Shown here: one piece after another, positions 38,282 through 42,295 of the stretch
Layout of the letters: the number at the start of each line of letters is the position of its first letter
How positions within the stretch are numbered: the first letter of the stretch is position 1
Assembly: GCA_026702755.1 (NCBI GenBank)
Contig: JAPPBX010000048.1
Location: forward strand, 1-42,620
From: Candidatus Poribacteria bacterium
GTDB lineage: Bacteria > Poribacteria > WGA-4E > WGA-3G
Direction: 5' to 3'
Length of the DNA: 42,620 bases
Notes under the pieces: model-generated
The model's database searches: none
Told to the model about the DNA's origin: nothing
The model's input: the letters and a program-made list of their open reading frames with translations, nothing else
Made by a program: the position numbers and the translations under genes

Positions 38282-38911
38282 ATGGAAACGGTCACCTCAA
38301 CACCGGAATCCCCACCCGTTACTGGGAAGGGGCGAGTCCTAATCATTGATAACAATCCGGATCGGGCGAATTCGTTAATCGATATTCTGAAAGCCGGTCG
38401 TTATAAAGTCGCTGTGCCTATGCGTTTACAAGAGGGTGTGGCTGAACAGGTTGCCCTGATAAAGCCAGATGTTATACTGATTGGTGTCGATTTTCCGGGG
38501 GGCGCGGTACTCAGTTGGGTCGCGTCTCTCCACGAAAGTTATCCATGCCCCACAGTCATGTTCTCTCGAGATGAGCGATCCGAAACGATTCAAGCAGCGA
38601 CCCGTGCGGGCGTGTCGGCGTATGCTGTTGGAAAACTCACTGGTGCCCGGGTTAAAACCATTATTGAAGCGGCTGTCGCCCGGTTTTATGAATTTCGGGC
38701 ATTGCAAGAGGAACTTGAAAAGACAAAAACAAACCTTGCCGAACGCAAAATCATCGAACGCGCAAAGGAACTGGTCGCGCAACAACGCGGTTGTAACGAA
38801 GCGCAGGCGTATCAAATTTTGCGGAAGATGGCGATGAATCGCAGGAAACGTCTCGCGGAAGTTTCGCGGGATATACTATCAGTTGCAGAAGTATTGACGA
38901 ATAAATTATAG
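38282..38911 (+). CDS. ANTAR-domain antitermination regulator, NasT-like
   Basis: 209 aa. The N-terminal receiver-like domain (about 17-135) has VLIIDNNPDRANSL with the acid pocket near Asp23 and KPDVILIGVDFPGG; the position of the phosphorylated Asp is Gly68 (four residues before Pro72), so classical phosphorylation is unlikely. A coiled linker (about 136-155) leads to an ANTAR RNA-binding domain (156-209) with the typical ERKIIERAKELVAQQRG and AYQILRKMAMNRRKRLAEVSR. NasT proteins bind paired hexaloop hairpins and prevent termination; in NasS-NasT systems the activity is set by a nitrate sensor, which is not in this window. Likely control target: the nirA leader directly downstream. Expression from a sigma-54 promoter fits nitrogen control. 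Confidence 0.9.
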   Translation: METVTSTPESPPVTGKGRVLIIDNNPDRANSLIDILKAGRYKVAVPMRLQEGVAEQVALIKPDVILIGVDFPGGAVLSWVASLHESYPCPTVMFSRDERSETIQAATRAGVSAYAVGKLTGARVKTIIEAAVARFYEFRALQEELEKTKTNLAERKIIERAKELVAQQRGCNEAQAYQILRKMAMNRRKRLAEVSRDILSVAEVLTNKL

Positions 38912-38991
38912 CAGGGATATCCGTTCTCACTGAAACTGCGCGGGTTCAAGGGTGAACAGCGCGTGCACATTAGGATTACTTATTTTGTTCA

Positions 38992-39059
38992 GTAGGGGCG
39001 AGGAATGTAATGCAAGGAACGGATTTGGTCTATTTAAAGACCAAATCCCCTCGCCCTAC
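38992..39059. repeat. Composite palindromic repeat between nasT-like and nirA genes
   Basis: Outer arms GTAGGGGCGAGG (38992-39003) and CCTCGCCCTAC (39049-39059, one C shorter) enclose a hairpin GGATTTGGTCT (39021-39031) / AGACCAAATCC (39038-39048). The segment 39004-39034 reappears with one mismatch at 42323-42353. Confidence 0.7.
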
Positions 39060-39086
39060 GGGCAGGCAATATAGATAATAACAACA

Positions 39087-39172
39087 CCCAACCAATGGTG
39101 GTTTGGGACTGGACACAGGTGTCTATCTGGCTGAGTTTTACACTCGCTGATAGATGCCTTTTTTTATTTTTT
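39087..39172 (+). promoter_or_regulatory. ANTAR-type antitermination leader of nirA
   Basis: Hairpin P1: CCCAACC (39087-39093), hexaloop AATGGT (39094-39099), GGTTTGGG (39100-39107, one bulge). Hairpin P2: TGGAC (39110-39114), hexaloop ACAGGT (39115-39120), GTCTA (39121-39125). Both loops have A at position 1 and G at position 4, as ANTAR targets require. The terminator arm GGTGTCTATC (39118-39127) overlaps P2 and pairs with GATAGATGCC (39149-39158; ten pairs, two G-U), followed by T7-A-T6 (39159-39172). P2 and the terminator are therefore mutually exclusive. Confidence 0.85.
39118..39172 (+). terminator. Conditional terminator in the nirA leader
   Basis: Stem GGTGTCTATC / GATAGATGCC with a U-rich tract, about 100 nt before the nirA start codon at 39272. 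It overlaps the second ANTAR hexaloop hairpin, so it should be read through when the regulator is bound. Confidence 0.8.
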
Positions 39173-39271
39173 ATCAGTCAGAGACCATGCGTGGTAGGAA
39201 CCCAAAAACGACTGGATATTAACCGAAAGCTGGTGACCCATGACCAACAGCCATGCCAAGGAGGTTCAAAG

Positions 39272-40849
39272 GTGAACGAATTAAAAAAGAAAACTATTCT
39301 GCCAAACAGAAAGGTGCGTTCAGCACCAACAGCGGCTGGGAAAAAAAGGAAGTCCAAAATAAATGCTGCAGAACTCCTCAAGCAGCAGAAAAACGGACTT
39401 GAGGTAATCAATGACATTCCAAACTACATTCGGGATGGATGGGAATTGATTCCGCCAAACGAACGCGACCGACTCAAGTGGGTAGGTGTCTTTTACCGAA
39501 AGCAGACACCTGGGGCGTTTATGATGCGGCTCCGTATGTCCAGCGGTTTTAGTAACGCCGAGCAGCTCCGCGCGATCGCTGAAATCAGTGAGGCACACGG
39601 ACCCGGATTCGTGGATCTCACGACGCGTCAACAGATTCAACTCCGAGGTTTCGCAATTGAGAACGTTCAGCACATCTGGAATCGACTTGAAGAGGTCGGT
39701 TTAGGTTCACTCCAAACGGGTTTTGACAACATTCGCGGTGTAATTGGATGTCCGGTTGCGGGATTAACACCGAATGAACTCTTTGATGCTTCGCATGTTT
39801 GTAGAGAATTCACAAGACTCATTGTCGGCAACAAGGAATTTACCGATATTCCGCGCAAGTTTAATGTCGGTATCACAGGCTGTTTGGATAACTGCACGCA
39901 TACCTCCTCGCAAGACATTGCCCTTACACCTGCTGTAAAGGAGGTTGATGGTCAAGAGACGAATGGTTTTAACGTTGCTGTTGGCGGAAAGATGGGATCT
40001 GGTGGTTACACACTCGCGCAACCGCTTGATGTGTTTATTACCCCTGAAGAAGCCGCAGTTTTGTGTGCAGACATTACGCTAATTTTTCGAGATCACGGAC
40101 CTCGGACAGCTCGCAATAAATCTCGCCTCGCTTTTCTGATTGCGGATTGGGGTGTAGAAAAATTTCGAGAAGAATTAGAAAGACTACGGCACAGAAAACA
40201 ACCGCTCCTGACTGCGGGTAAAGATATGCGCGGGAAAAACAGGACCGACCACACCGGTATCTTCTCACAGAAAGAGCCACACCTCAACTATGTCGGGCTT
40301 GTTGTACCGGTCGGACGCATCACGGCGGCGCAACTTTTTGAGGTCGCCCGACTTGCAGATGAGTACGGTAACGGCGACATCCGCCTCACCCAAGGGCAGA
40401 ATCTGATTATCACTAACGTGCCGGACACAAAGATCGGCGACTTAACTGCCGAACCGCTCCTTCAGGAACTCCGCTATGACCCCTCGGAGATCATGCGCGG
40501 GATGGTGAGTTGCACGGGGATCGACTACTGCCACTTCTCGCTTATTGAAACGAAAGAACGGGCGATGGAAGCGATTCGGCATTTGGAAGCAAAACTCGGT
40601 AATACCAAACCGCTGACGATCCATTGGTCTGGGTGTCCTAATGGCTGCGGCAACCACGCTGCAGCGGACATCGGGCTGCTCGGCAAGAAGATTAAGATTG
40701 ATGGGATTGTTACCGATGCAGTGGACGTGTTCCTCAAGGGCGATGCCAGTGCGAACCCTAAAGTCGCACCAAAGTTATTGGAAAATGTACCCTGCGACGA
40801 TTTACCGCAGGTACTTGAAGGACTCGCTCCTTACCTTTCACGGAGGTAG
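39272..40849 (+). CDS. nirA: Ferredoxin-nitrite reductase
   Basis: 525 aa from the GTG at 39272, chosen because AGGAGG lies 7 nt upstream; the longer frame from 39095 starts inside the terminator. The assimilatory enzyme reduces nitrite to ammonium with six electrons from ferredoxin. The siroheme/4Fe-4S ligands are Cys414 and Cys420 (SCTGIDYC) and Cys455 and Cys459 (SGCPNGCG). Two ferrodoxin-reductase-like halves are visible: RMSSGFSNAEQL with DLTTRQQIQLRG, and the second with RLTQGQNLIITNVP. A Lys-rich N-terminal extension (about residues 1-45) is unusual. The first structural gene of the nitrate cluster, it is controlled by the antitermination leader. Confidence 0.93.
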   Translation: MNELKKKTILPNRKVRSAPTAAGKKRKSKINAAELLKQQKNGLEVINDIPNYIRDGWELIPPNERDRLKWVGVFYRKQTPGAFMMRLRMSSGFSNAEQLRAIAEISEAHGPGFVDLTTRQQIQLRGFAIENVQHIWNRLEEVGLGSLQTGFDNIRGVIGCPVAGLTPNELFDASHVCREFTRLIVGNKEFTDIPRKFNVGITGCLDNCTHTSSQDIALTPAVKEVDGQETNGFNVAVGGKMGSGGYTLAQPLDVFITPEEAAVLCADITLIFRDHGPRTARNKSRLAFLIADWGVEKFREELERLRHRKQPLLTAGKDMRGKNRTDHTGIFSQKEPHLNYVGLVVPVGRITAAQLFEVARLADEYGNGDIRLTQGQNLIITNVPDTKIGDLTAEPLLQELRYDPSEIMRGMVSCTGIDYCHFSLIETKERAMEAIRHLEAKLGNTKPLTIHWSGCPNGCGNHAAADIGLLGKKIKIDGIVTDAVDVFLKGDASANPKVAPKLLENVPCDDLPQVLEGLAPYLSRR

Positions 40850-40899
40850 GATGGAAGGTTGGAAGAAGCATCTTCCCACAATCCGCCAGTTTTCCATCC
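40849..40899. repeat. Inverted repeats between nirA and the transporter gene
   Basis: GGATGGAA (40849-40856, overlapping the nirA stop codon) pairs with TTCCATCC (40892-40899). An inner hairpin GGAAGA (40861-40866), AGCA, TCTTCC (40871-40876) is present. It could moderate read-through within the operon. Confidence 0.5.
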
Positions 40900-40942
40900 T
40901 TCCCGTCAAAATTCTTAACAATTTAAAAAAATGGGGACCTTC

Positions 40943-42295
40943 ATGGATATTAAAAATAAAGCAACACAGATAAACCTCTTTAGCTTAAAAACGATCCAGA
41001 TGCGAACCTTTCATACCACATGGTTTGCGTTCTTTTTAGCCTTTTTCGGGTGGTTCGGCATTGCCCCACTTATGGCGATTGTCCGTGAAGACCTGATGTT
41101 AACAAAAGCGCAAATTGGTAATACGATTATCGCTTCCGTAGCGATTACGGTGCTGGTTCGTGTCTTAATCGGACCGCTCTGCGACAAGATCGGTTCCCGA
41201 AAGGCGTATACATGGCTTCTAATTCTCGGTTCACTGCCCGTCATGGGTATCGGGCTTGCCCAAAATTATGAAACATTTCTCCTTTTTCGATTGGCGATTG
41301 GTGCCATCGGTGCCTCGTTCGTCATTACACAATATCATACATCGGTGATGTTTGCACCCAATTGTATCGGCACAGCGAATGCGACAACGGCAGGATGGGG
41401 CAATCTCGGCGGCGGTGTTACGCAGATGGTGATGCCTCTCATATTTACCGCTGTTCTCAGTTTCGGTGTGAACGAATTCCTTGGATGGCGACTGGCGATG
41501 ATTGTTCCCGGTATTGCGCTATTTATCACTGGGTTCGCTTATTACTTTCTTACCCAAGATGCACCAGATGGCAACTATAAAGAGCTCCGTGAACGGGGTG
41601 AACTTGAACCTTCGGAAGGTAAAGGCAAAGAATCTTTCATGCTGGCGATTAAAGATTACCGCGTCTGGGCACTTTTCGTCATTTATGCCGCCTGTTTCGG
41701 AGTTGAGTTGACTATTAACAATGTCGCTGCGCTCTACTATCACGACCAATTCCAGTTGGATGTCAAGACCGCAGGACTCATCGCTGGATTGTTCGGTTTG
41801 ATGAACATCTTTGCGCGAACCGTCGGCGGTGCCTTCTCCGATTTCTTTGCCAAAAAGATGGGGCTACGTGGACGCGTTATGTTCCTCTTTGTTGTCCTGT
41901 TAGGTGAGGGGGTCATGCTGATGCTATTCTCACAAATGGCTGTGCTTGTGCTTGCTGTTGGAACGATGATTGTCTTCAGCCTCTTCGTGCAGATGTCCGA
42001 AGGCGCGACGTTTGGAATCGTTCCGTTTATCAATAGGAAGGCGTTGGGGGCTGTTGCTGGTATCGTCGGTGCTGGTGGAAATGCTGGCGCGGTTGCAGCA
42101 GGGTTTCTATTCCGCTCCGAGAGTATCACGATGCAGCAAGGCTTACTGTATCTCGGCGTAATGGTCGCAGTTGCCTCAGTTGCCACGGCGTTGGTGAGAT
42201 TCTCACCGGCAGTTCAAGATGCAGAGAAGAAGGCGTTTGATGCAGCGCTCGCTGAGAGGCAACGTCTAAAAGCCGATGTGATACAAAGCGCGTAA
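40943..42295 (+). CDS. Nitrate/nitrite transporter (NNP family, MFS)
   Basis: 450 aa from the ATG at 40943, with GGGGA just upstream; an in-frame ATG at 40931 lacks a ribosome binding site. About 12 membrane segments. The two NNP signatures are visible: AGWGNLGGGVTQMVMPLIF (about 150-168) and GIVGAGGNAGAVAAGFLF (about 370-387). MFS loop motif GPLCDKIGSRKAYTW is present. It is expected to bring nitrate into the cell for reduction by the enzymes encoded on both sides, and lies between nirA and a molybdopterin oxidoreductase gene. Both narK and nasA-type names are in use, so no symbol is assigned. Confidence 0.92.
   Translation: MDIKNKATQINLFSLKTIQMRTFHTTWFAFFLAFFGWFGIAPLMAIVREDLMLTKAQIGNTIIASVAITVLVRVLIGPLCDKIGSRKAYTWLLILGSLPVMGIGLAQNYETFLLFRLAIGAIGASFVITQYHTSVMFAPNCIGTANATTAGWGNLGGGVTQMVMPLIFTAVLSFGVNEFLGWRLAMIVPGIALFITGFAYYFLTQDAPDGNYKELRERGELEPSEGKGKESFMLAIKDYRVWALFVIYAACFGVELTINNVAALYYHDQFQLDVKTAGLIAGLFGLMNIFARTVGGAFSDFFAKKMGLRGRVMFLFVVLLGEGVMLMLFSQMAVLVLAVGTMIVFSLFVQMSEGATFGIVPFINRKALGAVAGIVGAGGNAGAVAAGFLFRSESITMQQGLLYLGVMVAVASVATALVRFSPAVQDAEKKAFDAALAERQRLKADVIQSA

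Follow-up and report, generated by a model that had tools for sequence, protein, structure and literature searches.

In the 42,620-nucleotide stretch of Candidatus Poribacteria DNA analysed here, hereafter the window, the leader of the nitrite reductase gene nirA is very probably a protein-dependent transcription attenuator of the ANTAR type, which would control nirA-narK(-narB). Judged from its sequence, it is a well-supported and typical ANTAR target RNA, of a known kind, in a lineage for which a full-text literature search found no earlier report of such an RNA. It comprises two neighbouring hairpins with ANNGNN hexaloops (AATGGT and ACAGGT) followed by an intrinsic terminator, at window positions 39087-39172. 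The ANTAR-type antitermination leader that the initial annotation had proposed for nirA is supported, with a Pfam-recognised ANTAR gene just upstream and NirA just downstream, and two elements come in addition to that proposal, namely a third hairpin with an A1/G4 loop, P0, and a whole nirA-narK-narB operon behind the leader.

Architecture of the locus and of its leader

From position 38282 to 42295 of the window, the ANTAR regulator gene is followed by 360 nt of intergenic DNA, then by nirA and a gene for a NarK-type transporter, with the following features:

38282-38911, + strand: NasT-like regulator gene, Asp-less (pseudo-)receiver plus ANTAR domain, 209 aa (Pfam ANTAR, E 3.9e-17, 62 bits)
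38934-38967, + strand: P0, third conserved hairpin, A1/G4 hexaloop AAGGGT at 38948-38953, 23 nt past the ANTAR stop codon
39087-39107, + strand: P1, first putative antiterminator hairpin, hexaloop AATGGT at 39094-39099 (sequence, conservation and covariation, with 4 pairs changed on both sides)
39110-39125, + strand: P2, second putative antiterminator hairpin, hexaloop ACAGGT at 39115-39120, overlapping the terminator (sequence, covariation and conservation)
39117-39159, + strand: intrinsic terminator stem-loop, 5' arm 39117-39127 common with P2 (fold, covariation and shared-base test)
39159-39172, + strand: U-tract, T7 A T6, TTTTTTTATTTTTT (sequence)
39258-39264, + strand: ribosome-binding site AAGGAGG of nirA (sequence; same motif before nirA in relatives)
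39272-40849, + strand: nirA, ferredoxin-type nitrite reductase (Pfam NIR_SIR and NIR_SIR_ferr)
40931-42295, + strand: NarK-family nitrate/nitrite transporter of the MFS (Pfam MFS_1; TIGR00886 308.6 bits, cut-off 311.7)

P1 reads CCCAACC-AATGGT-GGTTTGGG, with 7 pairs and a one-nt bulge, and is separated by a two-nt gap from P2, which reads TGGAC-ACAGGT-GTCTA with 5 pairs, while the 5' arm of the terminator begins within the P2 loop. The sequence thus bears out the coordinates, the loop letters, the A1/G4 positions and the terminator overlap first described; the terminator stem, given at the time as ten pairs, comprises about 18 in the predicted fold, 11 of them consecutive. To be set against the ANTAR reading, RNA folding may close A1-U6 of a hexaloop and leave a tetraloop. 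A motif scan for paired A..G.. hexaloops with an overlapping terminator returned this leader as the single match in the window, with none on the opposite strand. Since 60 dinucleotide-shuffled versions of the window gave one match in the same scan, the arrangement is not ascribed to chance, a point settled by its conservation in 55 relatives.

Rfam, searched with the whole window and locally, gave no relevant match for the leader, and no sign of an ANTAR RNA family was seen in Rfam 15. No promoter was recognised by a sigma-70 scan upstream of the leader. An ATG at 39095, inside P1, opens a frame running through the leader into nirA but without a ribosome-binding site, and was judged a coincidence. 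Window positions 38992-39059, between P0 and P1, are occupied by a palindromic repeat, GTAGGGGCGAGG...CCTCGCCCTAC.

Conservation, covariation and alternative folds

A genome scan with the regulator retrieved Candidatus Poribacteria metagenome-assembled genomes at 68-94% identity, the lineage of the window itself. Among the 194 genomes searched, one ANTAR gene each was present in 36 genomes of the genus (that of the window included), 15 others of the family and 5 others of the order. The 55 related loci (L032-L086) were fetched, giving 56 leaders with that of the window, and three loci of other phyla (L087-L089) besides. The alignment of leaders from related genomes, proposed by the initial annotation as a check on its reading, was carried out, and both the A1/G4 loops and the overlap with the terminator proved conserved. 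In P2, A1, G4, G5 and the C:G closing pair are found in 56/56 leaders. Adjacent six-base-loop hairpins are present in the window and 45 relatives, and in these uninterrupted leaders the P1 loop shows G4 in 46/46 and, by automatic count, A1 in 43/46, with a C:G closing pair in 45 of the 46. The distance between the P1 and P2 loops is 15 nt in the window, as in 39/46 leaders altogether, and 14 nt or fewer in the rest.

Base pairing is maintained beyond the loops. In P1 and P2 together, 5 pairs changed on both sides, with a covariation score of 0.200 vs. 0.131 after shuffling and at most 0.094 for slid partners. The terminator has 8 such doubly changed pairs, with 94.5% of cells paired. The strongest single test of alternative folds is provided by the base common to P2 and the terminator, which finds a partner in either fold in 56/56 leaders. 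The triplets formed by this base and its two partners are G-C-G (31 leaders), A-T-A (12), A-T-G (7) and G-T-A (6); in other words, wherever the shared base is C both partners are G, and wherever it is T both are A or G. It follows that selection maintains both alternative folds, and folding, covariation and the shared base concur in making P2 mutually exclusive with the intrinsic terminator.

A covariance model of the leader matched once in the window's genome (68.4 bits, the next match scoring 13.5), which reveals no further target there; among the ANTAR-bearing relatives searched, each one whose P1 is uninterrupted gave one strong match. No match of comparable strength was obtained in ANTAR-less relatives. 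Weak matches in G001, G015, G040, G045 and G067 were set aside as chance or repeats, as they need long loop insertions and also occur in ANTAR-less genomes.

In ten more leaders, all from members of the genus (L038, L039, L042, L046, L053, L054, L056, L060, L063 and L064), P1 is interrupted in its 3' arm by a dispersed palindromic repeat, AAATTGTGCC-N5-GGCACAATTT, of which genome G024 holds many copies. These odd hairpins, considered as a possible new type of P1, were ruled out as such, being copies of the repeat. On the NirA tree, the insertion corresponds to at least two independent events. That these ten genus members still keep P2, the terminator and the ANTAR gene is a counterpoint to the reading as an ANTAR leader, as are the fact that A1 of P1 falls short of universal, the lack of a recognised sigma-70 promoter and the missing sensing partner. 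A palindromic repeat resembling the one between P0 and P1 of the window sits inside the terminator loop of L038, L042, L046, L053 and L056, leaving the stem unbroken.

The nitrate-assimilation operon behind the leader

Judged from gene order in relatives, the leader would stand before a nirA-narK-narB nitrate-assimilation operon as a whole, since narB, encoding the assimilatory nitrate reductase, follows narK in relatives and is found in the window's genome at the edge of another contig. For NirA, the best NCBIfam model is ferredoxin--nitrite reductase (537 bits, under the cut-off of 594), and a full-length homologue (72-95% identity) comes after the ANTAR gene in 51/55 relatives. In L048 (genome G018), nirA is broken, as the match is restricted to the last 67-82 residues and contains a stop; leader and narK are retained there. 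Family f4 (three genomes) has another reductase in the place of nirA after the leader, namely a 1060-aa NirBD-type protein with FAD/NAD, BFD, NIR_SIR and Rieske domains; there, the enzyme was swapped and the RNA switch and transporter were kept. ANTAR gene, leader and nitrite reductase co-occur across relatives, and among 17 ANTAR-less relatives tested none (0/17) has a nirA orthologue, the search returning either nothing or sulfite-reductase-like proteins at about 30% identity. A partial survey of the neighbourhoods saw no conserved sensor gene near the operon. DUF1670 HTH genes occur after narB in the one genome examined for them.

A regulator without phospho-acceptor

The regulator is the sole ANTAR protein of the window's genome, as a single match was obtained in the genome search. 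The positions contacting RNA in EutV (R142, K143, K149, E160, Y164, M172 and R177, as listed in PMC8934654) are kept in 56/56 regulators. The receiver-like part, for which the Response_reg match is under the Pfam cut-off, has lost the phospho-acceptor Asp in 56/56 proteins (G in 53, C in 2 and N in 1; D54 replaced by G in the window), and the switch Lys is likewise lost. With this Asp missing, the protein does not appear to fit a phosphorelay response regulator of the EutV kind. The loss has a precedent, since Asp-less receivers fused to ANTAR domains form a known class (PMC4395418). No NIT domain was found in the regulator either.

When compared with what defines a NasS-NasT system, the protein has the REC-like and ANTAR domains, and the NasS partner was not found: neither the window's genome nor those of f4 yielded a NasS-like NMT1_2 protein, and other members gave weak or partial matches only, in some of the genus. 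As the window's genome is 96% complete, the absence of NasS from it is likely rather than certain. Outside the Poribacteria, the closest relative to come out of the genome scan is a nasT (37% identity) that keeps the Asp and adjoins a nasS-like gene.

The leader is presumed to respond to nitrate, a wording kept cautious because the sole ANTAR protein is devoid of Asp and the genome of a NasS-like sensor. These same two observations would suit a leader working as described but answering redox or general nitrogen status, for which a different partner protein might be the intermediary, as would the ammonium transporter gene that immediately precedes the ANTAR gene in f4. Against such a signal, which is possible but rather doubtful, the operon is one of nitrate assimilation (nirA, narK, narB) and the known ANTAR regulators of such operons, NasR and NasS-NasT, answer nitrate or nitrite (PMC7496416; PMC3795266).

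A third hairpin and other candidate targets

P0 has an A1/G4 six-base loop in 43/56 leaders (the window and 42 relatives) and is missing or altered in 13. When its loop was searched without requiring these letters, A1 was found in 41/44 and G4 in 43/44. Its outer arms pair better with their own counterpart (-8.3 kcal/mol) than with arms from other genomes (-5.4 kcal/mol, sd 0.36), bearing in mind that this shuffling ignores relatedness. This supports, without proving, that P0 is an RNA helix. Two observations disfavour a symmetric DNA operator: loop position 4 is nearly fixed (G in 43/44) but position 3, its counterpart by symmetry, is unconstrained, and the outer arms vary in sequence yet stay complementary. 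Tentatively, the regulator might need neither NasS nor phosphorylation and act on a three-hexaloop RNA (P0, P1 and P2) in which P0 would be a further binding site.

Elsewhere, genomes G021 and G035 contain a second dual-hexaloop leader with an overlapping terminator (P1 loop AACGTT, P2 loop AGAGGT; L149 552-600, - strand, and L150 590-637, + strand) before a gene for an Alginate_exp-type outer-membrane barrel, and this leader may be a further target of the regulator. No such leader accompanies the porin homologues of two f2 genomes. In f4, the ANTAR gene is itself preceded, downstream of the ammonium transporter gene, by a P2-like hexaloop (GGAC-AAAGGC-GTCC) with an overlapping terminator and no clear P1 (L085 988-1028, same place in L084 and L086), a possible case of autoregulation.

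Proposed mechanism and remaining alternatives

By analogy with EutV, NasR and NasT (PMC3369931; PMC8934654; PMC7496416; PMC3795266), the nascent leader would by default form the terminator (39117-39172 with its U-tract) and RNA polymerase would halt before nirA. In its RNA-binding state, the NasT-like regulator from the adjoining upstream gene would grip the P1 and P2 hexaloops as a dimer; because P2 uses bases of the terminator 5' arm, the terminator could not form and nirA-narK(-narB) would be transcribed. The sequences show two mutually exclusive folds, their conservation and covariation, intact RNA-contact residues in the regulator and the need for read-through to reach the gene; from the analogy, it is expected that the regulator binds the P1P2 RNA, that the control is an activation and that the signal is nitrate or nitrite.

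It is very improbable that the stem-loop is instead a constitutive terminator of the ANTAR gene, with nirA expressed from its own downstream promoter and incidental hexaloops. Its position between the ANTAR stop codon and nirA, together with the 100 nt from U-tract to nirA start in the window, would agree with such an arrangement. In several relatives, however, as few as 21-28 nt separate the end of the U-tract from the start codon, a space taken up by the ribosome-binding site, and that of the f4 reductase starts immediately after the U-tract; with no promoter room there, transcription can arrive at the gene in these genomes only by passing the terminator. Besides, A1/G4 of the P2 loop are invariant though a plain terminator needs neither, and P1 covaries yet stands outside the terminator. 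As for a riboswitch or leader-peptide attenuator operating without an ANTAR protein, it is barely credible, for although mutually exclusive terminator and antiterminator are also a riboswitch layout and the ATG in P1 opens a frame into nirA, the leader matches no Rfam family and has no compact ligand-binding core, its antiterminator consists of two small hairpins obeying the published ANTAR loop rule, and it occurs together with an ANTAR gene and a nitrite reductase.

Comparison with known ANTAR systems

The attenuator proposed here closely resembles the NasR/nasF leader of Klebsiella oxytoca, where two A1/G4 hexaloop hairpins with C:G closing pairs, the second overlapping an intrinsic terminator, precede a nitrate-assimilation operon (PMC7496416); the C:G pair closing each loop is also a SELEX result (PMC7496416). 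Unlike the Poribacterial protein and its Asp-less receiver-like domain, NasR has a nitrate-sensing domain of its own. With NasS-NasT of Paracoccus, Azotobacter and Bradyrhizobium, it shares a REC-ANTAR protein, nitrate-assimilation genes and antitermination, but differs in that no NasS was found in the window's genome and that the Asp, kept in the 37%-identical nasT relative, is lost. The loop rule, the P2-terminator overlap and the RNA-contact residues are those of EutV and the eut leaders of Enterococcus faecalis (PMC3369931; PMC8934654), where, in contrast, EutV is phosphorylated by EutW on Asp54. An ANTAR protein with a non-phosphorylatable pseudo-receiver is also known as AmiR in Pseudomonas aeruginosa (PMC8934654; PMC4395418), which is held by AmiC, whereas no partner was found for the present regulator.

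The very short 2-nt linker reported initially stands when counted from the outermost P1 pairs, whereas its novelty does not, since actinobacterial ANTAR RNAs have been accepted with linkers of 2-25 nt (PMC8164766). The linkers of the E. faecalis eut leaders measure 5-12 nt, and shortening that of eutP to 3 nt led to poorer induction (PMC3369931). Counted from the unbulged inner stem of P1, the Poribacterial linker is about 6-7 nt. Loop-to-loop distance is a fairer measure, because the protein contacts the loops and only the top stem pairs. Judged by the accepted range, the linker length appears suitable.

Concluding remarks

Little has been learnt so far about nitrogen regulation in Candidatus Poribacteria, which are uncultured symbionts of sponges. 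The present analysis extends ANTAR antitermination, with covariation support, to this phylum. It further provides a clear example, extending across the phylum, of a NasT-like regulator that lacks its known sensor, and makes the question of what an orphan Asp-less ANTAR protein senses testable with one protein and one RNA.
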